Of a DNA stretch of 32,212 bases, positions 1,048-14,905 are shown one piece after another (the first letter of the stretch is position 1; each line of letters starts with the position of its first letter). The translations under genes and the position numbers were made by a program. Location: positions 1 through 32,212 of the forward strand of contig CAMBDK010000021.1 of assembly GCA_945865315.1 (NCBI GenBank), given 5' to 3'. The notes beneath the pieces were generated by a model. The model made no database searches and was not told where the DNA came from. It saw nothing but the letters and a program-made list of their open reading frames with translations. Source of the DNA: Chitinophaga pinensis (lineage in GTDB: Bacteria > Bacteroidota > Bacteroidia > 2-12-FULL-35-15).

Positions 1048-1494
1048 TTAATTGGTTTGTTTCTTTATCATTTTACCAATTAAATGATCCAAGCTTAATT
1101 TGCCAGCGCCATTAAAAACCAATACAATTAACATTATCATATAATATAATGGTATTTCGAATCCATTATCTGATGCACTAAAACCATTTCCCCAATGAGC
1201 AGTTTTTATTGCTACAAACATGGTTATAATAAGTGGGATAGAGATAAACCTTGTGGCAAAACCAAGCGCTAAGAAAATAAAACCAAAAAACTCTGTATAG
1301 GAAGCTAGATAAGCATTAAAATGAGGCCATGGTAGTTCAATACTTTCAAACCACTCTGCTATAAGTCCTATATCATTTAATTTTTTCATTGCAGGATCAT
1401 AAAACCCATATGCAAGAATTAAACGCAGAATTAAAAGTGGTATATAATTAAGGTTTTTTAGTTGGTCAATAACTTTAAAATAAATTGTTTTCAT
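1048..1494 (-). CDS. DoxX family membrane protein (HvfX-like)
   Basis: This 148-residue protein has four predicted membrane spans (roughly residues 17-35, 60-82, 84-100 and 112-128) and the DoxX-type pattern of a short N-terminal stretch, LRLILAYGF, a loop with YTEFFGFIFLALGFATRF, and a KTAHWGNGF segment. DoxX proteins are small integral membrane proteins. A DoxX member is the usual fourth gene of hvf/buf copper-binding peptide operons, where it is thought to help with redox handling or maturation at the membrane. Here it is on the same strand as the hvfABC-like genes but lies about 400 bp beyond the DUF922 gene, separated by the palindromic element at 1752-1908. It may have its own promoter (TAACTTTG at 1560-1567). 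Family assignment is firm. Membership of the peptide system is inferred from context. Confidence 0.8.
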   Translation of the reverse strand: MKTIYFKVIDQLKNLNYIPLLILRLILAYGFYDPAMKKLNDIGLIAEWFESIELPWPHFNAYLASYTEFFGFIFLALGFATRFISIPLIITMFVAIKTAHWGNGFSASDNGFEIPLYYMIMLIVLVFNGAGKLSLDHLIGKMIKKQTN

Positions 1495-1900
1495 TTTTTT
1501 AAAGATTTAAGGTTAATAATAAAAGTTATCAGTTTAATGTTATGTAAATTGAATTATTACAAAGTTAAATCATTTATCAAAATAGCTTTTAAAACTATTT
1601 TTAAAAGAGTGAAGCAAATTAATAATTTAATAGTTTAATTTATTAATAATATAATAGAGCAAAAAATATTTATTAAAAAAAGTAACAGCTAAAATGTTAT
1701 AGGTGCTTCTATTATTATTAATTTATTAAAACGTAATTTTAAAAACCCAGCTTAATTAGTGTCTGTCCATAGAGTCGAGAGTCTGAACTATAATGTTCGA
1801 GTTCGAGGCTTTCGTAGTTTTGAAAATCAGGAGTTTACATTGGTAAATGACTGGTTTTCAAAACAATAATAACGAAGAAATCGGACATTATAGACAGACT
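1495..1900. other. Spacer holding a palindromic element and a possible promoter
   Basis: No coding frame is visible. From 1752 the spacer is occupied by the imperfect palindromic element described separately. The rest is AT-rich and contains a TAACTTTG box (minus strand, 1560-1567) upstream of the DoxX gene and a small AAAATAG/CTATTTT hairpin near 1580-1602. Confidence 0.6.
1560..1567 (-). promoter_or_regulatory. Possible -7 box for the DoxX gene
   Basis: The minus strand reads TAACTTTG, matching the Bacteroidota -7 consensus TAnnTTTG, about 65 nt before the DoxX start at 1494. No well-spaced -33 TTTG is present, so this is a tentative call. Confidence 0.3.
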
Positions 1901-1908
1901 TTAATTAA
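1752..1908. repeat. Imperfect palindromic element, MITE- or REP-like
   Basis: The ends TTAATTAgtGTCTGTCcATA (1752-1771) and its near reverse complement (1889-1908) form 20-nt arms with three mismatches. Inside, 1817-1830 pairs with 1851-1864 (14 bp with one G-U), and TTTAC (1834-1838) pairs with GTAAA (1843-1847). The whole 157-nt unit can therefore fold on itself. It encodes nothing. The right end covers the stop codon of the DUF922 gene (TAA at 1901-1903). It resembles a non-autonomous mobile repeat. A second copy is not seen in this window, so mobility is inferred. Confidence 0.6.
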
Positions 1909-2467
1909 ATCTTAAAGTAAATTCTGTATCCTTAAATTTATTAAGTTTCTTAATTTCAAGTAAAATATTGCTATTCCAAATAATTTGTTGATTACTATTC
2001 ATAGACCCCTCCGTTTCATCATCATATTTATTATGATAATTATCCATTTCAATGTCAATAATAGAATATAAGGAATCGCTTATTATTTCAATATTATCAA
2101 TTGAAATATCTTTATTTTCAATTAATAATTTACGATACTTACGTGAAAACAGTTCTACTATATCAAAATGTCTTTGTTCATGAGTAAGGATGAAATCGCT
2201 AATCCAACTTTTCTTTTTCCATGATTTATTGCAGAAAAATACTGCTTGTACTTTAATAATAGCAGCTTCTTTATTTAATACATTAATAGTTTTTATTATA
2301 TCATAGCTGGTAGAAGCTGCAGCAAACCTTTTTGCAGGTTTTCCTTTAAAATCATTCCAAGTTAAAGCTCTACCTTGTTCCCAAATAATAATGTCGTTAT
2401 TATATAGGAGAAAGGATGAAAAAATAAATATTAAGACCGGCATTAAAAATAATAGATTTCTTAACAT
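1901..2467 (-). CDS. DUF922-like secreted or anchored HExxH zinc protease-like protein
   Basis: This 188-residue protein begins with a signal peptide or signal anchor (residues 2-22, LRNLLFLMPVLIFIFSSFLL). It continues with ALTWNDFKGKP (about 34-44), which matches the start of DUF922 domains, and has HEQRHFDI at 96-103. That motif fits both DUF922 and the HExxH zinc-protease signature (H96, E97, H100). A late YDDETEG segment (148-154) corresponds to the place where relatives usually have a YD..T.HG motif, and here that His is absent. The gene lies 47 bp downstream of the DUF2063 gene on the same strand, so it is probably co-transcribed with the copper-peptide genes. A role in trimming or clearing the secreted peptide is possible but is inference from position only. 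The stop codon lies inside the end of the palindromic element, so the C-terminus may have been altered by insertion. Confidence 0.65.
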   Translation of the reverse strand: MLRNLLFLMPVLIFIFSSFLLYNNDIIIWEQGRALTWNDFKGKPAKRFAAASTSYDIIKTINVLNKEAAIIKVQAVFFCNKSWKKKSWISDFILTHEQRHFDIVELFSRKYRKLLIENKDISIDNIEIISDSLYSIIDIEMDNYHNKYDDETEGSMNSNQQIIWNSNILLEIKKLNKFKDTEFTLRFN

Positions 2468-2514
2468 TTTACTTGACGTAGTATTAAAATAAATTCATAT
2501 TTAATTAGTACAAA

Positions 2515-3264
2515 TTATTCAATAGCAATTACAAACTTTTTTGTAATCATTGATTTAATAAATAAAATTGTGTTTGTTTTTAATTCATCAATTGAAATAT
2601 TAGAAAATAATTGTGGCGCGTAATTTAATATTTGGTTTATTGTTAAATCATTTTGGCTCACTTGTTCAATAAGAAATGAGTACCAAACAGATAAATCTAC
2701 AAATTGGATTTTACCGGATTCTTTTTCACGGAATAAAAGAACAAAATAATTCCCCTTTTTTTCAGTAGCTATTGTCGGAGGGTATATATGAATAGGGAAT
2801 TCTAAAGGTAATAATATAAATTCTGGATTAAATTTAATTTTATCATTGATTATATCGCCCTCAAAGCTCCCATAATTGTATGGCTTATCAGCCATGTTAT
2901 ATAGCTCCATTTCAGCCCATTCAAAATTCAAAAGGTCTGTTAGATAATGGATTTCATGCTTTTTGGCATAATTATTATCAATAACAAAATCTACAAATTC
3001 TTTAGGCAATTTCCATACCTGATAATTTTGACATGGATGAATAGAGAAAAAATCATACACTAGTTCCTCCCAAATTTCAGCAGGTAAATATTTATATGCA
3101 ATAGGAAATGCATTCTCAATGTTATCTTTAATAATATTAAAGACTAACCTGCGGTATTGTGATAAACGATTAGGGGTTAATCCAAGAAGGTCAACAGCTA
3201 TGCCATCACGGCAATATTTTGCAAGTTGGCTTTGGGCGGTATATGTATCAAGCGATAAGTTCAT
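2515..3264 (-). CDS. hvfC: DUF2063 / HvfC-like RiPP maturation partner
   Basis: This 249-residue protein matches the DUF2063 family. It has an N-terminal helical domain with YRRLVFNIIKDNIENAFP and WEELVYDFFSIHP (about residues 38-76), LPKEFVDFV, and a central DLLNFEWAEMELYN segment (about 110-123), followed by a less conserved alpha/beta C-terminal part. In characterised hvf/buf/chr systems this protein partners the DUF692 oxidase and helps it engage the precursor peptide. Older annotations call the family a putative DNA-binding protein. The start codon at 3264 lies inside the end of the DUF692 gene (17-nt overlap), which implies translational coupling and a fixed ratio of the two subunits. 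The symbol is given by family and context, not by close sequence identity. Confidence 0.85.
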   Translation of the reverse strand: MNLSLDTYTAQSQLAKYCRDGIAVDLLGLTPNRLSQYRRLVFNIIKDNIENAFPIAYKYLPAEIWEELVYDFFSIHPCQNYQVWKLPKEFVDFVIDNNYAKKHEIHYLTDLLNFEWAEMELYNMADKPYNYGSFEGDIINDKIKFNPEFILLPLEFPIHIYPPTIATEKKGNYFVLLFREKESGKIQFVDLSVWYSFLIEQVSQNDLTINQILNYAPQLFSNISIDELKTNTILFIKSMITKKFVIAIE

Positions 3265-4075
3265 GTTTTTTACTCCATCTTAAATTTGTTATCGCCTTTA
3301 ATTTATTTATCTCTCCTTGTAATTCAATCATTTCAGGAATATTAAAATCACGTTCTAATAAAATGGGAACAGGCTGAATTTTCCCAGCAGTATAGTCAAA
3401 TAAATCAAAAACAGGGTCAATAATAGCTTCTCCGTGTGTATCTATTATTAAATCATCGGAAATTTGAAGATGGCCAGCCATATGAATATATGCAACCTTA
3501 TCAAGTAATAAGCCATCAATAAAACTTTTTGCGTTATAATTATGGTTAAATGAATTTACGTAAACATTGTTAACATCAAGTAACAACTTACAACCCGATT
3601 GCTCCAGAATGGCATTAATAAATGTTAATTCGTCCATTTCAGCAGCTACAGGCGTATAATAAGAAACATTTTCCATGATGAACGGACGTTCTAAATAATC
3701 TTGAACAATTTTTATCCTTTCAACTATATGTGTTACCGCATCTTCTCTAAAAGGTATTGGCAATAAGTCATACAAGTGTGCATTATCACATTTAGCATAA
3801 CTTAAATGTTCTGAATAGATGTCAATATTATATTCTTTCAAAAATGCTTTTAAATTTTTAAGAAAAATAAAATCTAATGGATCTGGACTACCTATAGACA
3901 ATGACAAACCATGACAAGCAATTTTATACTTATCAGCAATTTGATTAAATTGTTTTTTCCAATAGCCGCCTATTCCTATCCAATTTTCTGGAGCAACCTC
4001 CACAAAATCAGGTTTAATAATAGAGCCGCTAATAAATTCTTCGGCAAAATCTCTTCTATATCCTAATCCAATCAT
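3248..4075 (-). CDS. hvfB: DUF692 MNIO-family RiPP oxidase (HvfB-like)
   Basis: This 275-residue TIM-barrel enzyme carries the DUF692 signature run: GLGYRRDF (3-10), DFVEVAPENW (23-32), ACHGLSLSIGS (53-63), YSEHLSY (87-93), ENVSYY (135-140), LLLDVNNVYVNSFNH (164-178), YIHMAGH (196-202), DTHGEA (212-217) and LLERDFNIPE (239-248). The His, Glu and Asp residues in these motifs (H55, E89, H90, E135, D167, N169, H178, H198, H202, D212, H214, E241) match the metal-binding set of multinuclear non-heme iron oxidases. Relatives such as MbnB and HvfB oxidise Cys residues of precursor peptides to thioamide- or oxazolone-type copper ligands. Length is normal for the family. It follows the precursor gene by 44 nt, with a hairpin between, and overlaps hvfC. 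Assignment is strong, but the exact modification is inferred. Confidence 0.92.
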   Translation of the reverse strand: MIGLGYRRDFAEEFISGSIIKPDFVEVAPENWIGIGGYWKKQFNQIADKYKIACHGLSLSIGSPDPLDFIFLKNLKAFLKEYNIDIYSEHLSYAKCDNAHLYDLLPIPFREDAVTHIVERIKIVQDYLERPFIMENVSYYTPVAAEMDELTFINAILEQSGCKLLLDVNNVYVNSFNHNYNAKSFIDGLLLDKVAYIHMAGHLQISDDLIIDTHGEAIIDPVFDLFDYTAGKIQPVPILLERDFNIPEMIELQGEINKLKAITNLRWSKKHELIA

Positions 4076-4085
4076 AATTATAAAA

Positions 4086-4117
4086 TTAAGGGAGGCTTTT
4101 TAAACCTCCCTTTAATT
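4086..4117 (-). terminator. Intergenic hairpin between precursor and oxidase genes
   Basis: GGGAGG (4090-4095) and CCTCCC (4105-4110), extended by AA/TT and by an outer AT pairing with one bulge, form a stem with a nine-base loop between the hvfA stop (4120) and the hvfB start (4075). On the minus strand it is followed only by a broken U run. It therefore looks like a leaky terminator or a 3' RNA-stabilising hairpin that would give more precursor than enzyme, the usual need in RiPP operons. That effect is inferred. Confidence 0.55.
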
Positions 4118-4119
4118 AA

Positions 4120-4557
4120 CTACTTAGGTTTTTTCTCACCACATTTAGCATCTTTTGCTTTTCCATCTGTTTTATGCTCGCCGCATTTTCCTTCACCACA
4201 TTTAGCATCTTTTGCTTTTCCTTCTGTTTTATGCTCACCACATTTAGCATCTTTTGCTTTTCCATCTTTTTTATGCTCACCGCATTTTCCTTCGCCGCAT
4301 TTAGCATCTTTTGCTTTTCCATCTTTTTTATGCTCACCGCATGTTGCATCTTTTGATTTAGCATCTTTTGCAGCGCAAGTTAATTCATAGGCATTGATAG
4401 CGTCAGATGGATTTCCTAGTAATCCTGTTCTTACTTCTGCTCCTGAACCTAAAGAACTATAATTAGATAATGAATTAGCATCCACATTTGCATTTGTCAA
4501 TGCAAGTATAGCACTTGTAATTACTGATCCTGAAAGGATAAATTTTTTGTTTTCCAT
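4120..4557 (-). CDS. hvfA: HvfA/bufferin-like secreted Cys-rich RiPP precursor
   Basis: This 145-residue protein has a signal-peptide-like N-terminus (MENKKFILSGSVITSAILAL, residues 1-20). It then has a Ser/Asn-rich leader containing LGSGAEVRTGLL (36-47), a segment I recall as shared with HvfA-type precursors. A Lys/Asp/Gly/Cys-rich core follows. There are eight Cys, at 61, 73, 87, 92, 106, 120, 125 and 139. The last seven are each followed by Gly-Glu, and two sit in the EGKCG motif that HvfB modifies in Haemophilus. Cys spacing is 14, 5, 14, 14, 5, 14, reflecting a 33-residue tandem duplication (residues 73-105 and 106-138). Export would place the modified peptide in the periplasm or outside as a copper binder. 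It directly precedes the DUF692 and DUF2063 genes and has a good promoter. Function by family and context is likely; metal specificity is not shown here. Confidence 0.88.
   Translation of the reverse strand: MENKKFILSGSVITSAILALTNANVDANSLSNYSSLGSGAEVRTGLLGNPSDAINAYELTCAAKDAKSKDATCGEHKKDGKAKDAKCGEGKCGEHKKDGKAKDAKCGEHKTEGKAKDAKCGEGKCGEHKTDGKAKDAKCGEKKPK
4144..4341 (-). repeat. Two 99-bp tandem repeats in the precursor core
   Basis: Units at 4243-4341 and 4144-4242 encode residues 73-105 and 106-138 of the precursor and differ at only a few codons (for example Lys/Thr and Asp/Glu). Each 99-bp unit contains shorter internal repeats of about 42 bp, each encoding one CGE-bearing block. The repetition also keeps other frames and the opposite strand open. 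Confidence 0.85.
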
Positions 4558-4601
4558 ATTTTAAAAAAATTAAAGGGTTAAATAATTTATTTAATTGTAT
4601 T

Positions 4602-4632
4602 CAAATATAATAATATTTTTTTTAAAAGCAAA
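4602..4632 (-). promoter_or_regulatory. Bacteroidota-type promoter of the hvfABC-like operon
   Basis: On the minus strand TTTG (4632-4629) is followed after exactly 19 nt by TATATTTG (4609-4602), a full match to the TTTG / TAnnTTTG consensus of the phylum's primary sigma factor. The predicted transcript would start near 4596, leaving a leader of about 40 nt before the precursor ATG at 4557. No metal-regulator operator is obvious. Confidence 0.65.
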
Positions 4633-4788: not shown

Positions 4789-6879
4789 TTACTCATTGCA
4801 TACTATTTTTTTATAATACATTTCCCCTTCCTTCAGTATTTTCATAAAATAAATGCCGCTAGGTAAAGCTATATCTAGCTTTCCGGACTGAATATCCAGC
4901 ATATTTTTAGAATAAATTTTCTCACCAAAAACATTGAAAATATTAAACGCCAAATCCTTATCCAAATAGTTAAATTTCAAACTAAAAAATCCATTGTTGG
5001 GATTAGGATAAATAATTATTTCGTCTTCTAAACCATCCGCTAAAGCCGATGTTTTAATTTCTGTTGTAATAACATTAAAATCTGAAGAGCTTGCCGAACA
5101 TGAATTTAAATCTGTAACAGTCAAACTATAATTACCAATTTGAGTAAACGTATAACTTTGAAATATACCATCGATAATGATATTACCATTTAAATACCAT
5201 TGATTACCGGTGGTAGCACTTGAATTTAGAACATTTCCATTTTGAGTAATTTGTGGTGTAGCCGGTAATGGATTTACAGTAATCCAAATAGTATTAGAAT
5301 TTGCAAAACAACCGTTATCATTCGAAACTACTAGTGAATAATTACCCGAACTGGAAACATTAATTGTTTGATTTGTAGCTCCGTTGCTCCATGTGTAAGT
5401 TGAATAACCTGCACCTGCATCTAAAGTTAAACTTTCTCCCTGACAACAAGTTGTTATTCCGCTTGAAGTAGTAATTGTTGGCGCTAACAAAAGCGCTGGT
5501 AGGGTAAAACTACTTCCTTCTGAATGAATATAGCCATTAAAAATCCGCCAGTAATAAGTTGTGCCTGGTGAAAAGGACAAAGAGCTAGGGGTACATGGTG
5601 CAAATCCATTATCGCACTGGAAGTTAGATGGACCAGAAGTTGATGTTACATTAGAAATATCTTTATGATAGTAAAAACTGAAATTTGGATCAGGTGAAAT
5701 ATCAATCCACCATCCATTGTCGGTGTTTGTCCAATTGAAATTTACATTACCGGAACAGTCCGGAGCTACCTGTAATTTTGTTGCATAGCAATTCACCTGA
5801 TTTTTAAATGCATTAAAAGAGTTTTTTTGGTCGGAAGAAGTAAAATTACCCTGTTCATAAATACCCCAGTAATTACCTGGGAAATCCATTAAACAGAACC
5901 AAATTGCTAAAGCAATTCGCGAATCATTTTTTAATATATTGAACGAAGTTGTTAGGTTATCCGCCTGTCCAGAATTACCTACCAAGTTTGACTGCCAACC
6001 AATTTCCGACAACCAAATTTTTTTGGAAGTGTTACCCTCGTAGTTGGTAACATTATTCCAGAAGCCATCAATATTTGCGTTTATTGCTGATGTTATTGTT
6101 GAAGCGTCAGAACTTCCCTGTTCGGCATATATATGCATACCGAGGCCATCTAATGGATAGGAGCCCGTTTGCTGATGTATCCAGCTCCATGCTAAATTAT
6201 TTATACCTTCGTAATAGGTATCGTTAATGTACTGTCCACCATCGCCTCCATTTCCAATATCTGAAGTAAAAAGTGGACCCGAAACTAAAGTAACTTGCCA
6301 GGATTGATCGCCCCCGTGATTATTAAAATATTTTGTATTCAGATAAACGTCTTGTAAAATTTTTGCAAACCAATGTGGATGTACTTTTTGCATCGTGCCG
6401 CCTTGCCAATCATTAGGTTCATTATAAGACTCATAAACCCTAATTCTGTCTTTAAAATAATCAACTACTTTTACAAAATTAATAGTGTATTGCTGAATCC
6501 AGTTATCTGCATCCGTTGTATTTATTCCAGGATATTCTCTCAAAATATCATTAGGATCTCCATTACATTCTGAACCTATTACTCCATAAATCTCAATACC
6601 TTGCTTTTCAAAACCGTCCACAATTTCATCATAAGTTTGTTTCCATGTTTTTCCGTTATGAAGCGTCTGATCTTCTGGTGACGACCAAGGGCCTAAAATG
6701 AAATTTAAACGTACCCACTGCGTGCAGGTATTAGCAACAATATCAACTGTGGCATTTGCATTAATTTCCCCCGTATTTATATCAATGGGTTGCATGCAGT
6801 CAATACCAATACCAGTTTGGCTATTCATTTTTATTATATAAAAGAAAATAAAATATAAAATAAAAATATTTTTTTTCAT
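4789..6879 (-). CDS. Secreted clan-A-like glycoside hydrolase with type IX secretion sorting domain
   Basis: This 696-residue protein has a signal peptide (1-20). A TIM-barrel hydrolase-like domain follows (about 25-365), with an acid/base candidate E154 in SYNEPN and a nucleophile candidate E292 in LSEIGW, an arrangement typical of clan GH-A. A fibronectin-III-like segment (about 368-463, with PGTTYYWRI) is followed by two Ig/PKD-like modules typical of Bacteroidota surface proteins (about 466-536 and 537-605, each with GNYSL.V). The C-terminus (about 622-696; YPNPNNGFFSL, LPSGIYFMKI) is a type A type IX sorting domain. The protein should be exported by Sec and then delivered across the outer membrane, where it probably cuts a plant or microbial polysaccharide. 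The precise GH family and substrate cannot be told from this reading. It stands alone as a gene. Confidence 0.8.
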   Translation of the reverse strand: MKKNIFILYFIFFYIIKMNSQTGIGIDCMQPIDINTGEINANATVDIVANTCTQWVRLNFILGPWSSPEDQTLHNGKTWKQTYDEIVDGFEKQGIEIYGVIGSECNGDPNDILREYPGINTTDADNWIQQYTINFVKVVDYFKDRIRVYESYNEPNDWQGGTMQKVHPHWFAKILQDVYLNTKYFNNHGGDQSWQVTLVSGPLFTSDIGNGGDGGQYINDTYYEGINNLAWSWIHQQTGSYPLDGLGMHIYAEQGSSDASTITSAINANIDGFWNNVTNYEGNTSKKIWLSEIGWQSNLVGNSGQADNLTTSFNILKNDSRIALAIWFCLMDFPGNYWGIYEQGNFTSSDQKNSFNAFKNQVNCYATKLQVAPDCSGNVNFNWTNTDNGWWIDISPDPNFSFYYHKDISNVTSTSGPSNFQCDNGFAPCTPSSLSFSPGTTYYWRIFNGYIHSEGSSFTLPALLLAPTITTSSGITTCCQGESLTLDAGAGYSTYTWSNGATNQTINVSSSGNYSLVVSNDNGCFANSNTIWITVNPLPATPQITQNGNVLNSSATTGNQWYLNGNIIIDGIFQSYTFTQIGNYSLTVTDLNSCSASSSDFNVITTEIKTSALADGLEDEIIIYPNPNNGFFSLKFNYLDKDLAFNIFNVFGEKIYSKNMLDIQSGKLDIALPSGIYFMKILKEGEMYYKKIVCNE

Positions 6880-8222: not shown

Positions 8223-9758
8223 TTACTTGATTTTAGCCAATGCTTTAGTAGCTCTCGATTTGTATTTAGCACTGGTCTTAATTATTGCCTCCAATAAAAT
8301 TTTAGCCTCTGTAATTTTATTTTGTTTTATCAATGCTTTTGCTTTATTAAAACGTGCTCCATCATAATAAATTATGGCTGCTGAATTAATAAGCATATCA
8401 AATTGAACAATAGCCATTTCAGGTTTACTTAGTTTAAGGTAAGCGCAGCCAAGGAAATACAATGCTTCTGGATCGGCTGGTTTTATTTGAAGTACTTTTG
8501 TAAAATGCAATACGGCCTGCTCATACTCTTTTGATTCATATCTTTTTTTTCCTTTTCTAATTTCTGTTTGATAAGCCTCTGAGTCCATTTTTGTTTTTTT
8601 AGTTGCAATACTATTAAGGCTTTCACCCTCAGAATTTTTCAACATGGAAATAGTTTTTTCGCCTGTATTACTCTCAGGAGCCATGCTTGGAATATCCTCC
8701 AGGTTGGTACTTTCTTTTGCCTCAGGTGATTGAGGTGCTGCAGCGTAACCAACATTATCCGAGCCATTCACAAAGTTTGCCCCTTCAGATAGCTTTTGAT
8801 GTTTAGCAGTTTCCAAATTTTCATGTTCCCCTTTTTCCGATTGGTTTAGTGCAAGCCCCATCTCTTCTAAATCAGCCGCCTCTGCTTTTTTAGATTTTTT
8901 ATTATTATGGCTTTCAGCAAGCCCCTGTGATTGAACCGGTGCTTGCGCTAAATTATCTTGCGCAATAATTCTTGTGGGAATGGATCCAGGCAATTCACCA
9001 TCCGTTTTTGAATCTTTTTCAATCATTATTTTTTGTTCCGATTGCTTTTTTATAAATGCTAATTTCGAGGGCTCATTCGTTATAGCATAATTCAATTTTG
9101 GTTTTTCTTCTTGAAGTGCTGCTTGAGGTGCAGGGGCATCAGCAGCTCTCAGTAAATCAGATTGTGTGTTTTTTCTGCTTTGTTTTTTACTATCATCTCC
9201 ATTATTAGTTTGTTTTTGGCCAGCATCTTTAGTTGTAAGTATTTCTGAATCTTCAACAATTACAGTCTCTACTTCCTTGGCCTCTATATCATTAGCCTTA
9301 AGGCGATAGGCGTCTGTGTCTTCTGATGTAGTTTTAAAATTTTCTTCTTTTGTAGCTGTTGATTTACCAATAACTTCCTCTGGTATTAAATTATCACTTA
9401 GCATTCCTCTATCGTTCGATTTATTCAAATTGTTGTTAAAAAGGAAAAACAATCCGATGAGTAATGCAAGTCCGGCAGCAATAGCTATTAAGGGATTCCT
9501 CCATAATATAATTGGTTTGGATTTTTCGCTTGCTATAGTAATTTTTTTATCTATATTTAGTAAAATATCTTCTAATTTTGAAGCTTCTTTCATTTGCATT
9601 GCCCCATCCAAAGCATCGGCACACAGCTCACATGCAAGGCTATGTTTTTCCACCGCATGTTTTTCTTTGGCTGTAAGCTGATCGTTCATATAACGCAACA
9701 GCATATCCCTCGAAAGGCACTCCCCCTTATTAAATATTATATGTTGTTTATCAATCAT
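8223..9758 (-). CDS. Anti-sigma factor with zinc-finger domain, one membrane span and C-terminal TPRs
   Basis: This 511-residue protein has an N-terminal ZAS/zf-HC2-type domain. H39, C43 and C46 form the Hx3Cx2C motif, and C14 may contribute. A single membrane span follows (about 89-107, IAIAAGLALLIGLFFLF). A long polar, low-complexity region (about 110-390), rich in Lys, Glu, Ala, Pro and Gln, lies on the far side of the membrane. The C-terminus (about 396-511) contains tetratricopeptide repeats (KKRYESKEYEQAVLHFTKVL; DPEALYFLGCAYLKL). The N-terminal domain should hold the cognate ECF sigma at the membrane, and the TPR end may sense or bind a periplasmic partner. Its ATG abuts the sigma stop codon (TAAATG), so the pair is surely co-transcribed. 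The TPR extension is unusual for a simple anti-sigma factor. Confidence 0.8.
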   Translation of the reverse strand: MIDKQHIIFNKGECLSRDMLLRYMNDQLTAKEKHAVEKHSLACELCADALDGAMQMKEASKLEDILLNIDKKITIASEKSKPIILWRNPLIAIAAGLALLIGLFFLFNNNLNKSNDRGMLSDNLIPEEVIGKSTATKEENFKTTSEDTDAYRLKANDIEAKEVETVIVEDSEILTTKDAGQKQTNNGDDSKKQSRKNTQSDLLRAADAPAPQAALQEEKPKLNYAITNEPSKLAFIKKQSEQKIMIEKDSKTDGELPGSIPTRIIAQDNLAQAPVQSQGLAESHNNKKSKKAEAADLEEMGLALNQSEKGEHENLETAKHQKLSEGANFVNGSDNVGYAAAPQSPEAKESTNLEDIPSMAPESNTGEKTISMLKNSEGESLNSIATKKTKMDSEAYQTEIRKGKKRYESKEYEQAVLHFTKVLQIKPADPEALYFLGCAYLKLSKPEMAIVQFDMLINSAAIIYYDGARFNKAKALIKQNKITEAKILLEAIIKTSAKYKSRATKALAKIK

Positions 9759-10337
9759 TTAATTAGCCCCCTCCATACAAATTTTTAAATTTCTTTTACC
9801 ATTCTGAATAAAACTTTTTACATCATTCATTGTAAAGCCTGTTTCATCTACTACTTCCTGGTAACACTTCTCTTTAATAAAAAAAAGATCCACTGAAATG
9901 CGCTGTTTTTCATTCAGTTTGCCTATGCAATCTTCCAGTTTGGTAAGTGTTTTTTCTTTATTATTTCCACTAATCAGATGCTCATCATGTATTGTTTCCA
10001 TAAAAAAGGAAGCATCTTTTTTAAATTCTTTTTGTTTTTCCAACAAATTCTTCGCCGCTCTAAGCTGCATTAAACAATTGTTTTTTGATACCATGTATAA
10101 CCAAGCCTTAAAATTAGCAATTGAATGTTTTTTAAGGTCGGTAAGTAACTTTTCAAATATCTGCATCACAGCATCCTGTGCTTCATCCTCATCTTTTAAG
10201 TACTTCATACATACGCCAAAAACAAGGTGAGTGTATCTTTTAAATAACACACCTACTATTGAATTGTCGCCAAGTTCCTTATAGCGTTCAATTAATTCAA
10301 GGTCAGTAAGGTTTTTTATGTTAGAATTTAAAGTCAA
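9759..10337 (-). CDS. ECF-type RNA polymerase sigma factor
   Basis: This 192-residue protein has region 2 near residues 25-90 (VFGVCMKYLKDEDEAQDAVM, then FKAWLYMVSKNNCL) and region 4 near 137-187 (KLNEKQRISVDLFFIKEKCY followed by a helix-turn-helix with TMNDVKSFIQNGKRNLK). Length and domain order are normal for ECF sigmas. It directs RNA polymerase to its own set of promoters when released by the membrane anti-sigma encoded immediately downstream. It is divergent from the alpha-2-macroglobulin gene across a 116-bp spacer, so that gene is a reasonable candidate target. No shared promoter motif could be confirmed by eye. Confidence 0.9.
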   Translation of the reverse strand: MTLNSNIKNLTDLELIERYKELGDNSIVGVLFKRYTHLVFGVCMKYLKDEDEAQDAVMQIFEKLLTDLKKHSIANFKAWLYMVSKNNCLMQLRAAKNLLEKQKEFKKDASFFMETIHDEHLISGNNKEKTLTKLEDCIGKLNEKQRISVDLFFIKEKCYQEVVDETGFTMNDVKSFIQNGKRNLKICMEGAN

Positions 10338-10453: not shown

Positions 10454-13400
10454 ATGAAAACTCAAACAAAAAAAATTACAGGAACAGTGTTAGCTGCCAC
10501 TGGCCTTATGGCACTAGCAAGCTGGATGATACCAGAAAATTATCGCATAGCAATAGAGAATGACTTAATTGCCAAGCTCAAAAAAAAATCCTCGCTTTTT
10601 ATGGAAAGACTTCCTGAAGATCGAATTTATCTTCAATTCGACAAACCCTTTTATGCATCGGGGGAGACTATTTGGTTCACAGTTTTTGTACGCGATGGGG
10701 AATTGTTTAAAGCAAGCGGACAAAGCGATTTGGTTTATGTTGATCTTATATCTCCTAAAGGAACCATCGAAAGAACAATTACAGTTATCGCTAAAAATGG
10801 CATGGCGCAGGGTGATTTCTCATTAGGTACTGATGTTCTTGGAGGAATATATAAAATTAAAGCCTATACCAATTGGCAAAAAAATGATATCGCCATTGCA
10901 GGGTCAAGCTCCGAAAAATACGGTTTCGAAAAGGAAATACAAGTGCAGGATATTGTATTGCCGAATTTAAAAATGAAATTAGATTTTGTTAAAAAAGCAT
11001 ATGGTCCTGGTGATGAGGTAGAAGCTAAAATTGAAATAAATACGAATGAAAATAAACCGCTAGCCAATTATAAGTTAAAATATGTGGCAAATATTAATGG
11101 TAAACAAGTGGTGAACGAAATTGCAATGACCAATTTGGATGGTATAAAAACAGTGAAATTTAAACTTCCAGAAAATTTAATAAGCAATGATGGATTAGTT
11201 AATATCGTGATCGATTATAATGGCAGCGCCGAAAGTATTTCGCGTTCTATACCTATTGTATTGGGGAATATTGATCTTGTTTTTTTTCCTGAAGGTGGAG
11301 ATATTATTTCTGGATTACAGGAAAATATCGCTTTCAGGGCATTGAACGAATTTAACAAGCCTGCCGATATTGAAGGTATCGTAAAAGATACCGATGGGAA
11401 AGAAGTTGCAAAATTCAGCAGTTTCCATATGGGGATGGGCGCATTCAGTTTTAAGCCTGTTGCTGGTGAAAAATATATTGCTGTGATAACTAAACCCGAA
11501 GGAATAAAAAAAGAATACGAATTGCCGGAAGCATTAGCAAAAGGATATGCTTTGAGCGCAGATAATTCTGTTAATACCGAAATAACTCTAAATATAGAAA
11601 GTACAGAGAGCGATGAACTTTCTATTATTGGGCAGGTTCGTGGCAAAATTTATTACGCAACAGCAATAAATGTGAAGCCGGGGCAAAATAAATTAGTTAT
11701 ACCCATTAGCAATTTCCCAATTGGAGTAGCCCAATTTACTTTATTCGATGGTAAAGGTATCGCTCGCGCTGAGCGTTTGACTTTTGTAAATAAAAACAAA
11801 CAGCTGCACATTGATGTTCGTACAGATAAAGATAAATATTTACCAAGGGAAAAAGTAAAAATGACAGTTTCTGTTGTGGATGATAATGGTGTACCCATGC
11901 CAGGTAATTTTTCGATGAGTGTGGTGAATGACCAGCTGCTTTCTTTTGCTGATGATAGATCAGGGAATGTTTTATCAAAAATGCTTTTGGAATACGATAT
12001 AAAAGACAACGTAGAAGAGCCTTCATTTTATTTCGATAAAACAGAAAAGAATGCCGATAAAGCATTAGATTATTTACTGATGACTTCAGGATGGAGAAGG
12101 TTTGATTGGGCAAAAATAATAAATGATGTGGCACCCTTGTTAGCTTATCAGCCTCAGCGTGCCATTGTTTCCGGACAAGTTATGGATGCTGCTACAGGAA
12201 GACCAATTGCTAACGTTGATATTAAATTAGCATCAAATGGAAATACATTTAAAACGGACGACCAGGGGAAATTTATTTTCAATAAAATAGATCTTTCACA
12301 GGTAGAAGGATTCAATTTGTCTGCTGCAAATTACAGAACTCAAAACCAAACCGTTAATGCTTACGGACAAAATCTAGTTTATTATTTATACGGAAATAAT
12401 TATATGGAAAACTATTATTCCTCAGTACCATCTTCAAATGACAGAATATTAGAAGTGCAATCGAGAAATAATCCAGAGGCTGTTATGGGAGCTGCACCGA
12501 TGAAGGATAGGCTAATGAAAAACGAGGGCCGACAAAAAGATGGAATGCCTTTACATTCTGAAAAAGCAAATTTCAAAAAAGATAAGGATCCCCAAATAGC
12601 TGCAGATTTCAAAATAGCCCTTGCAGATCAAAAGCAGGAAAAAAATAATGCAGGTATGGACATCAATGAAAATCGAAAATTTAAAGTTAAGGATGATCGC
12701 AGCAGCAGACTGGAAATGGCAGATGAAGAAGAAGATGCTGGGATCAATCGTCAGATAAATAATAATGGCATAATTTATTATCGTGCAAAACAATTTGCTG
12801 CTCCAATTTACGACAAACAAGAAACTATTGCCGAACGCAATGATTTCCGCAGTACTATTTATTGGAACGGAAATGTGGAAACAGATCGTACGGGGAAAAA
12901 GACAGTTGAGTTTTATAACTCAGACGATATATCTTCTTTCCGCGCAACAGTAGAAGGTTTCGCTGCTGATGGAATGGTAGGTAGGACAGAAAAAAAATAT
13001 TTTACACAACTACCATTTTCTTTAAGTATCAAAATTCCGGTGGAAGTGGCAACAGCAGATATTGTTTCCATCCCTGTTACTTTAAAAAATAATACGACGA
13101 AGGAGATTTATGGTATACTTGATGTTTCTGCTCCTTCAACTTTAAAATCACTGTCAACAATAGAGAAACTTTATACCATAGCAGCAGGGAAAGCAAAAAC
13201 CTTGTACCTCGATTATAAAGTGCTGCCTGCAATTGGTGAAGGTGATTTCTCAATATCTTTTAAAGCCTGCGGATTGAGCGATGCTTTCAGACAAAAAATA
13301 AAAACAGTATCCAAAGGATTTCCGGTTAACCTTTCCTTTAGTGGAAATGAAATAAAATCGGAATACACTTTCGATATTAATAATCTTGTTGAAGGTTCCC

Positions 13401-14905
13401 TGAATGTTCATTTTACTGCATTCCCTTCCGTAGTAAGTGATCTAATGACAGGTGTGGAAGGGATATTACGTGAGCCATCAGGGTGTTTCGAGCAAACATC
13501 CATGAGTTCCTATCCCAATATCATGGCCTTGGACTACATGCAAACAACAGGAAATACAGATACAAAAACGATGGCTCATGCCGCTGAACTCATCGATCGT
13601 GGTTATAAACGTTTGGCTACTTTCGAAACATCGCAAAAAGGTTACGAATGGTTTGGAGCAGCACCCGCCCACCAAGGTTTAACAGCCTATGGTCTGATGC
13701 AATTCAACGACATGAAAAATGTATATAATGGTGTGAATAAGGACATGATTGACCGCACAGCAAAATGGTTGATGAGTCAGAAAGATGGAAAAGGGGGATG
13801 GGCGCGTAACACTATCGCTTATCACAGTTTTGGTCAGATAAGCGAAGACATCATGAACGGGTATATTGTTTATGCTCTTACTGAAGCTGGGTACAAAGAT
13901 TTCAATACTGAATTAGATCATTCTACCAACAAAGCATTGGAAACAAAAGACCCTTATCAAATGGCTATGATGGCAAATGCATTGATAAAATCTAGTGACC
14001 CTCGTGCTGAAAATATGATGAAGCAATTGTTGAAAACTCAAAATGTGGATGGTTCATTTACTGGCACCACACACTCCATAACCTATTCACAAGGACAATC
14101 GCTTACTGTTGAAACAACAGCAATTGCAATTATGGCGATGCTGAAGAAGTCCTCTAATTATGCTGTTGCTTTAAATAATGCAGTAAAAGCTTTAGTAAAA
14201 ACACGAAGTGGTTATGGGGTATTTGGTAACTCACAAGGTACAGTTCTGGCATTAAAAGCGCTTACTGAATATGCTAAACAAAGCAAAAAAATAGCAGAAG
14301 ATGGAACAATAGAAATTTATTCGGGGAATAAAAAAATCGCTGAACAAACATACAAAGCAGGAGAAACAGGGACCATAAACATTGATAGTATTGGAGAATA
14401 TTTTGCAGCAGGAAAGAACACTATCAAAGTAAAATTTGTAGGAACAAAAACTGCTCTTCCGTATTCTATTGGTATAGATTATAACACTTCCCTTCCGCCA
14501 AGTTCAACAGAGTGCAATGTAGTAATCACAACTAAATTAGCTAATAAAATAGCTTATGTTGGTGAAACAGTTCGTTTGAGTACCACATTAAAAAATTGTA
14601 AAAACGAAGGATTGCCAAGTACCATGTGTATCGTTGGCATTCCGGCAGGTATGACGGCACAACCTTGGCAGTTAAAAGAATTGCAGGATAAAAAAGTGAT
14701 CGCATATTATGAAGTGCTGGGGAATAATGTAATATTCTATTTCCGGAACATGGCTCCAAATGAATTAAAAGAAATTAATCTTGACTTGAAAGCCGAAATG
14801 CCTGGTGATTATGATGCTCCGGCTTCATCAGCGTATTTGTATTATACAAATGAATTTAAATCCTGGTGTGGCATGGATAAAATATCAATTAAAAAACCAA
14901 TGTAA
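10454..14905 (+). CDS. Bacterial alpha-2-macroglobulin family protein with thioester motif
   Basis: This 1483-residue protein has an N-terminal export signal or anchor (about 7-25). It starts its macroglobulin part with RIYLQFDKPFY at residue 57, the MG2-type opening. A carboxypeptidase-regulatory-like beta-sandwich is inserted at about 570-643 (VSGQVMDAATGRPIANVDI). A Lys/Glu/Asn-rich region (about 655-790) sits where a protease bait region could be. The A2M core follows from about 803 (YWNGNVETDRTGKKTVEF). The thioester motif is Cys1011-Phe-Glu-Gln1014 within EPSGCFEQTSMSSYPN, and an alpha/alpha-toroid domain follows (WFGAAPAHQGLTAYGLM). The C-terminal beta domain resembles the receptor-binding part. 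Such proteins trap attacking proteases in the periplasm by covalent linkage. The divergent ECF sigma/anti-sigma pair suggests envelope-stress control, which is inference. Confidence 0.88.
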   Translation: MKTQTKKITGTVLAATGLMALASWMIPENYRIAIENDLIAKLKKKSSLFMERLPEDRIYLQFDKPFYASGETIWFTVFVRDGELFKASGQSDLVYVDLISPKGTIERTITVIAKNGMAQGDFSLGTDVLGGIYKIKAYTNWQKNDIAIAGSSSEKYGFEKEIQVQDIVLPNLKMKLDFVKKAYGPGDEVEAKIEINTNENKPLANYKLKYVANINGKQVVNEIAMTNLDGIKTVKFKLPENLISNDGLVNIVIDYNGSAESISRSIPIVLGNIDLVFFPEGGDIISGLQENIAFRALNEFNKPADIEGIVKDTDGKEVAKFSSFHMGMGAFSFKPVAGEKYIAVITKPEGIKKEYELPEALAKGYALSADNSVNTEITLNIESTESDELSIIGQVRGKIYYATAINVKPGQNKLVIPISNFPIGVAQFTLFDGKGIARAERLTFVNKNKQLHIDVRTDKDKYLPREKVKMTVSVVDDNGVPMPGNFSMSVVNDQLLSFADDRSGNVLSKMLLEYDIKDNVEEPSFYFDKTEKNADKALDYLLMTSGWRRFDWAKIINDVAPLLAYQPQRAIVSGQVMDAATGRPIANVDIKLASNGNTFKTDDQGKFIFNKIDLSQVEGFNLSAANYRTQNQTVNAYGQNLVYYLYGNNYMENYYSSVPSSNDRILEVQSRNNPEAVMGAAPMKDRLMKNEGRQKDGMPLHSEKANFKKDKDPQIAADFKIALADQKQEKNNAGMDINENRKFKVKDDRSSRLEMADEEEDAGINRQINNNGIIYYRAKQFAAPIYDKQETIAERNDFRSTIYWNGNVETDRTGKKTVEFYNSDDISSFRATVEGFAADGMVGRTEKKYFTQLPFSLSIKIPVEVATADIVSIPVTLKNNTTKEIYGILDVSAPSTLKSLSTIEKLYTIAAGKAKTLYLDYKVLPAIGEGDFSISFKACGLSDAFRQKIKTVSKGFPVNLSFSGNEIKSEYTFDINNLVEGSLNVHFTAFPSVVSDLMTGVEGILREPSGCFEQTSMSSYPNIMALDYMQTTGNTDTKTMAHAAELIDRGYKRLATFETSQKGYEWFGAAPAHQGLTAYGLMQFNDMKNVYNGVNKDMIDRTAKWLMSQKDGKGGWARNTIAYHSFGQISEDIMNGYIVYALTEAGYKDFNTELDHSTNKALETKDPYQMAMMANALIKSSDPRAENMMKQLLKTQNVDGSFTGTTHSITYSQGQSLTVETTAIAIMAMLKKSSNYAVALNNAVKALVKTRSGYGVFGNSQGTVLALKALTEYAKQSKKIAEDGTIEIYSGNKKIAEQTYKAGETGTINIDSIGEYFAAGKNTIKVKFVGTKTALPYSIGIDYNTSLPPSSTECNVVITTKLANKIAYVGETVRLSTTLKNCKNEGLPSTMCIVGIPAGMTAQPWQLKELQDKKVIAYYEVLGNNVIFYFRNMAPNELKEINLDLKAEMPGDYDAPASSAYLYYTNEFKSWCGMDKISIKKPM

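Follow-up and report, generated by a model that had tools for sequence, protein, structure and literature searches.

In the oxazolin system of Haemophilus influenzae, HvfBC convert six repeat cysteines of the precursor HvfA to 5-thiooxazoles, with four electrons (−4 Da) removed from each, to give a copper-binding product (PMC13419390). The same chemistry was described for fontiphorin and gonophorin, and the class was named captophorins (PMC13097082). Proven 5-thiooxazole substrates are HvfA, which carries three AEGKCGEGKCG repeats, and FonA, which has seven sites (PMC13419390; PMC13097082), and the EGKCG-class precursors found in the literature range from 31 to 506 residues (PMC12452194). In the MNIOs of Lys-Cys captophorins, substrate selectivity and the catalytic base have been assigned to residues that correspond in FonB to Arg15/Arg16 and Asp249/Phe250, and whether EGKCG products undergo further cutting is an open question (PMC13097082).

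The window analyzed in this work is the whole stretch of 32,212 nucleotides, in which a preliminary description had placed a "HvfABC/bufferin-like" operon whose precursor was said to have a longer core, so that its product would probably not have been described. Our analysis indicates that this is very probably an HvfABCX-type operon making an oxazolin/captophorin, that is, an EGKCG-type product with 5-thiooxazoles.

Gene organization of the locus

The four genes named in the preliminary description were all found on the minus strand within positions 1048-4632. These are hvfA, coding for an HvfA-like precursor of 145 aa (4120-4557), hvfB, coding for the MNIO (DUF692) cysteine-modifying enzyme of 275 aa (3248-4075), hvfC, coding for a DUF2063 partner of 249 aa with an RRE-like C-terminal domain (2515-3264), and hvfX, coding for a DoxX-family membrane protein of 148 aa (1048-1494). 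The reported overlap between the genes of the DUF2063 partner and the MNIO amounts to 17 bp. A fifth gene, absent from that description, is located between hvfC and hvfX on the same strand (1901-2467) and encodes a DUF922-like HExxHxD protein of 188 aa with an N-terminal hydrophobic segment; it is separated from hvfX by a gap of 406 bp that contains a repeated element. No known RNA family or riboswitch was found in the operon region.

The phylum promoter announced for this operon is also present. An exact match to the pattern TTTG-N19-TATATTTG lies at 4602-4632 on the minus strand, 45 nt 5′ of the hvfA ATG and in the right position for the precursor gene, with 0.61 matches being expected by chance on both strands of the whole window.

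Directly 5′ of hvfA, a gene on the same strand (4789-6879) encodes a secreted protein of 696 aa with a T9SS C-terminal sorting domain, which is not kept beside hvfA in relatives. Farther along the window there are an ECF sigma factor gene followed by one for a membrane/TPR protein whose N-terminal part is zinc-finger-like (8223-10337) and, divergent from them, a gene for a 1483-aa protein resembling a member of the alpha-2-macroglobulin family (10454-14905), all of them unrelated to the operon.

The MNIO enzyme, its precursor and partner proteins

Comparison with family models, as proposed in the preliminary description for the precursor and the DUF692 protein, gave scores above the cut-off in both cases. 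HvfB reached 384 bits with the NCBIfam HvfB equivalog (cut-off 360) and an E-value of 2.2e-97 with Pfam PF05114, and the precursor matched NF050137, the NCBIfam model of the HvfA-family KCGExKCG domain, in three stretches (39.5 bits, cut-off 19.5). HvfB was also aligned with the solved MNIOs 3BWW (4.8e-69), TglH and MbnB. Twelve residues (H55, E89, H90, E135, D167, N170, H198, H202, D212, H214, E241, and D243) are invariant among 72 HvfB sequences, and several of them line up with 3BWW, TglH and MbnB; the invariant His, Asp and Glu positions are presumably the multi-iron ligands, a role that we take from the family. Judged from the sequence, R7-R8 and D243-F244 of HvfB appear to correspond to Arg15/Arg16 and Asp249/Phe250 of FonB, and the second Arg of the R7-R8 pair is often Lys within the Bacteroidota clade. 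Neither a second MNIO nor a second such precursor was found in the genome.

With NF050188, the stricter HvfA equivalog of NCBIfam, the precursor attained 33 bits, under the cut-off of 95, so what places it in the HvfA family is the repeat domain, and it does not count as an HvfA equivalog. Its calculated mass is 15,031.8 Da in full length and would be 12,228.6 Da after cleavage behind Ala27. Six of its eight cysteines belong to KCG motifs (two EGKCG proper and four DAKCG), one to TCG and one to TCA. When aligned with 42 related precursors, it could be seen by eye to have a hydrophobic, signal-peptide-like N-terminus followed by an A-x-A-like site. Of 43 Bacteroidota-clade precursors, 42 have, behind the signal-like N-terminus, a LG[ST]GxxVR segment (LGSGAEVR in the window) that is a candidate recognition site for HvfC, and an extra Cys ahead of the repeats (C61 in the window) is nearly invariant in the alignment of this clade. 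The 43 precursors measure 93-181 aa and contain 3-9 KCG motifs, a range that includes the window precursor with its 145 aa and 6 motifs and rules out an exceptional length or repeat number. The longer core, and the new product deduced from it, are therefore unsupported; a product that had probably not been described is likewise at odds with a precursor that passes the curated HvfA-family domain model.

HvfC matched Pfam PF09836 (1.5e-15; 57.7 bits, cut-off 27.2) and gave 110 bits with the NCBIfam HvfC equivalog, under the cut-off of 142. Its structure model (pLDDT 92) matches TglI (8hi7_A), NGO1945 (3DEE) and MbnC, which are known MNIO partners. HvfX passed the NCBIfam HvfX equivalog with 127.7 bits (cut-off 80) and matched Pfam PF07681 (5.1e-18). 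Since both HvfC and the precursor are under their equivalog cut-offs, the operon is assigned to a diverged branch.

Comparison with known systems

The same four gene families and repeated KCG motifs are found in the oxazolin operon hvfABCX of nontypeable H. influenzae, whose Sec-type precursor would have a counterpart in the signal-peptide-like one of the window. Unlike the precursor of that organism, the one encoded in the window has in its backbone the LGSGAEVR segment and DAKCGE and GEGKCGEH repeats, and the operon differs in its diverged HvfC, in the extra DUF922-like gene and in a MITE-like repeat before hvfX. With the captophorins fontiphorin (fonABC) and gonophorin, the window operon shares the Lys-Cys precursor class and, apparently, the Arg-Arg and Asp-Phe residues of the MNIO; these systems are from Pseudomonadota, and FonA has seven modified sites, whereas the window precursor has six KCG motifs, one TCG and one TCA.

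Bufferins of the types Buf1/GIG (DUF2282) and Buf2 (6/12-Cys) resemble the operon in their MNIO, DUF2063 and DoxX partners and in their relation to metal stress, and ECF sigma factors are also present in Buf1 clusters. A bufferin, either DUF2282 or Cys-Lys, was rejected on the grounds that the precursor had no Pfam DUF2282 match and that the MNIO gave 264 bits with the BufB model, whose cut-off is 310. The chryseobactin (ChrH) and methanobactin (MbnB) systems have the MNIO superfamily in common with the operon and differ in partners and products; the window MNIO reached 53 and 42 bits with the respective NCBIfam models (cut-offs 600 and 325). Hence, the HvfABC part of the preliminary assignment is borne out by the curated models, the active-site residues, the gene order and the HvfC fold, and its bufferin part is contradicted by the model scores.

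Distribution and regulation of related loci

A scan of genome contigs yielded 76 loci encoding HvfB relatives, about 50 of which are from Bacteroidota or fall inside their clade in the tree, in a sample that leans to the window's own clade because peptides of its HvfB were used for the scan. The order hvfA-hvfB-hvfC is found in about 50 Bacteroidota-clade loci, mostly with hvfX following. The window groups with locus L002 (81% HvfB identity, support 100/94) and next with L003 (99/92). The presence of a close HvfB in the genus is patchy, with only 2 of 36 genomes encoding one, that of the window and G006, which appears to be the organism of L002. No plasmid-borne relatives were found.

In 36 of 52 Bacteroidota-clade loci, hvfA is directly preceded by genes for an ECF sigma factor and for a small anti-sigma protein, and the sigma factor is present in 34 of the 43 clade loci having at least 2.5 kb of upstream sequence. 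Examples of this pair with an antisigmaE-type protein are those of L003 (983-1853), L016 (3596-4467), and L005 (3626-4499); anti-sigma proteins of the clade scored 46-51 bits in three examples against the NCBIfam antisigmaE model (cut-off 50). In L030, a protein that by eye is MerC-like is encoded between the anti-sigma gene and hvfA (3586-4194).

The pair is missing from the window, from L002 and from several Chitinophaga and Pedobacter loci. Whole-genome searches gave no match to the clade sigma factor at E ≤ 0.001 and none to the clade anti-sigma family, such empty searches being weak evidence. The nearby ECF sigma gene (9759-10337) was considered as the missing regulator and found unsupported, given that the clade-sigma search of the genome returned nothing. 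Because the sigma/anti-sigma pair is missing in this lineage, the operon is probably driven here by an ordinary Bacteroidota promoter.

Between hvfA and hvfB there is a terminator-like hairpin (4088-4112, minus strand; z = −2.9 in the window). Across 45 loci, the 60 nt located 3′ of hvfA had a mean z of −3.9, with z < −2 in 39 of them, compared with 2 of 45 for a control segment upstream of hvfA. Since hairpin sequences vary among loci, it is the structure that recurs and not the sequence. Most simply, the hairpin would be a leaky terminator keeping precursor mRNA above enzyme mRNA.

The DUF922-like gene and the repeat before hvfX

The DUF922-like protein carries the motif HEQRHFD and matches Pfam PF06037 weakly (E 0.015; 15.8 bits, cut-off 27), the orthologue at the same place in L002 reaching 33.3 bits. 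Among related loci, only the window and L002 have this gene between hvfC and hvfX, and more distant homologues within the genus belong to genomes without a close HvfB. A sequence search against solved structures found no relative of this protein, and a structure model built from two sequences had a pLDDT of 42. It may be a secreted metalloprotease trimming the product, or a passenger. In L003, the slot between hvfC and hvfX is taken by a DUF4833 secreted protein (3922-4479), unrelated to the DUF922-like one, as if this slot were tolerant of insertions.

Upstream of hvfX, between this gene and the DUF922-like gene, lies a dispersed MITE-like repeat of about 155 nt with inverted arms (1753-1908), of which the genome has about 40 near-full-length copies. 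At this place, L002 has only about 45 bp.

Discussion

The gene content and order of this operon, the family membership of its products, the conservation of the active site, the promoter and the conserved hairpin are established by the comparisons described above. For the chemistry, export and copper binding of the window product, we infer a scheme by analogy with the described systems. HvfB would be a multi-iron TIM-barrel oxidase working with its partner HvfC, which would hold the unprocessed precursor via its N-terminal region, and the two proteins would act in the cytoplasm and oxidize each KCG cysteine of HvfA to a 5-thiooxazole, with a loss of 4 Da. Modified HvfA would then leave by Sec, with cleavage of the signal peptide, and the exported product would bind copper(I) via the thiooxazole sulfurs in the periplasm or outside, where it would buffer copper or oxidative stress. 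HvfX may be an inner-membrane helper, and the hairpin after hvfA would ensure that precursor mRNA exceeds that of the enzyme.

The same chemistry could serve another role, in which the product would bind another soft metal or guard against oxidants instead of buffering copper. No copper gene was found in the operon or adjoining it, the only CopA-type ATPase found being on another contig; gold, copper, and oxidants act as inducers in relatives (PMC13097082; PMC5413113), metal specificity is called open in the literature, and the protein that is MerC-like by eye is encoded upstream in L030. Since the EGKCG products characterized to date bind copper (PMC13097082; PMC13419390), we regard this alternative as possible but unlikely.

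Another alternative concerns the DUF922-like gene. Its HExxH product could be a dedicated maturation protease that divides the modified precursor into metallophores of repeat size, and the product of this lineage would then be a set of small peptides. This reading is in line with a gene inside the operon, in a position common to the window and L002, with the hydrophobic N-terminus and HExxHxD motif of the protein and with the room left in the literature for further cutting of EGKCG products (PMC13097082). However, the gene is missing from every related locus except L002, its homologues in the genus sit in genomes without a close HvfB, the window protein is under the Pfam cut-off and poorly modeled (pLDDT 42), and L003 has an unrelated DUF4833 protein in the same slot, all of which makes such a protease very improbable. 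A broader scenario would start from a Bacteroidota captophorin branch of its own, under ancestral control by an ECF sigma factor and a zinc-finger anti-sigma protein encoded directly upstream; the lineage of the window would have lost this switch and recruited a secreted DUF922-type metalloprotease cutting the modified precursor into small metallophores. We hold this combination to be highly improbable. Finally, an operon in decay or without function in this genome, as might be read from the lack of a detectable clade sigma or anti-sigma orthologue, from the repeat of about 155 nt that would split off hvfX and from the rarity of a close HvfB in the genus, is most improbable, because no reading frame is broken, the active-site residues and precursor motifs are retained and the promoter is exact.

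The operon interpreted here as HvfABCX-type is thus a gene set of a common, known type with a few unusual details, namely the extra protease-like gene and the lost regulator pair. Work on Haemophilus, Fontimonas, and Neisseria has already explained the core system. The main texts on the class that were searched by term deal mainly with Pseudomonadota, and the operon speaks for a branch of the oxazolin/captophorin class in Bacteroidota. It also raises side questions that can be tested, concerning the roles of the hairpin, of the near-invariant LG[ST]GxxVR segment, of the sigma/anti-sigma pair and of the lineage-specific HExxH protein.
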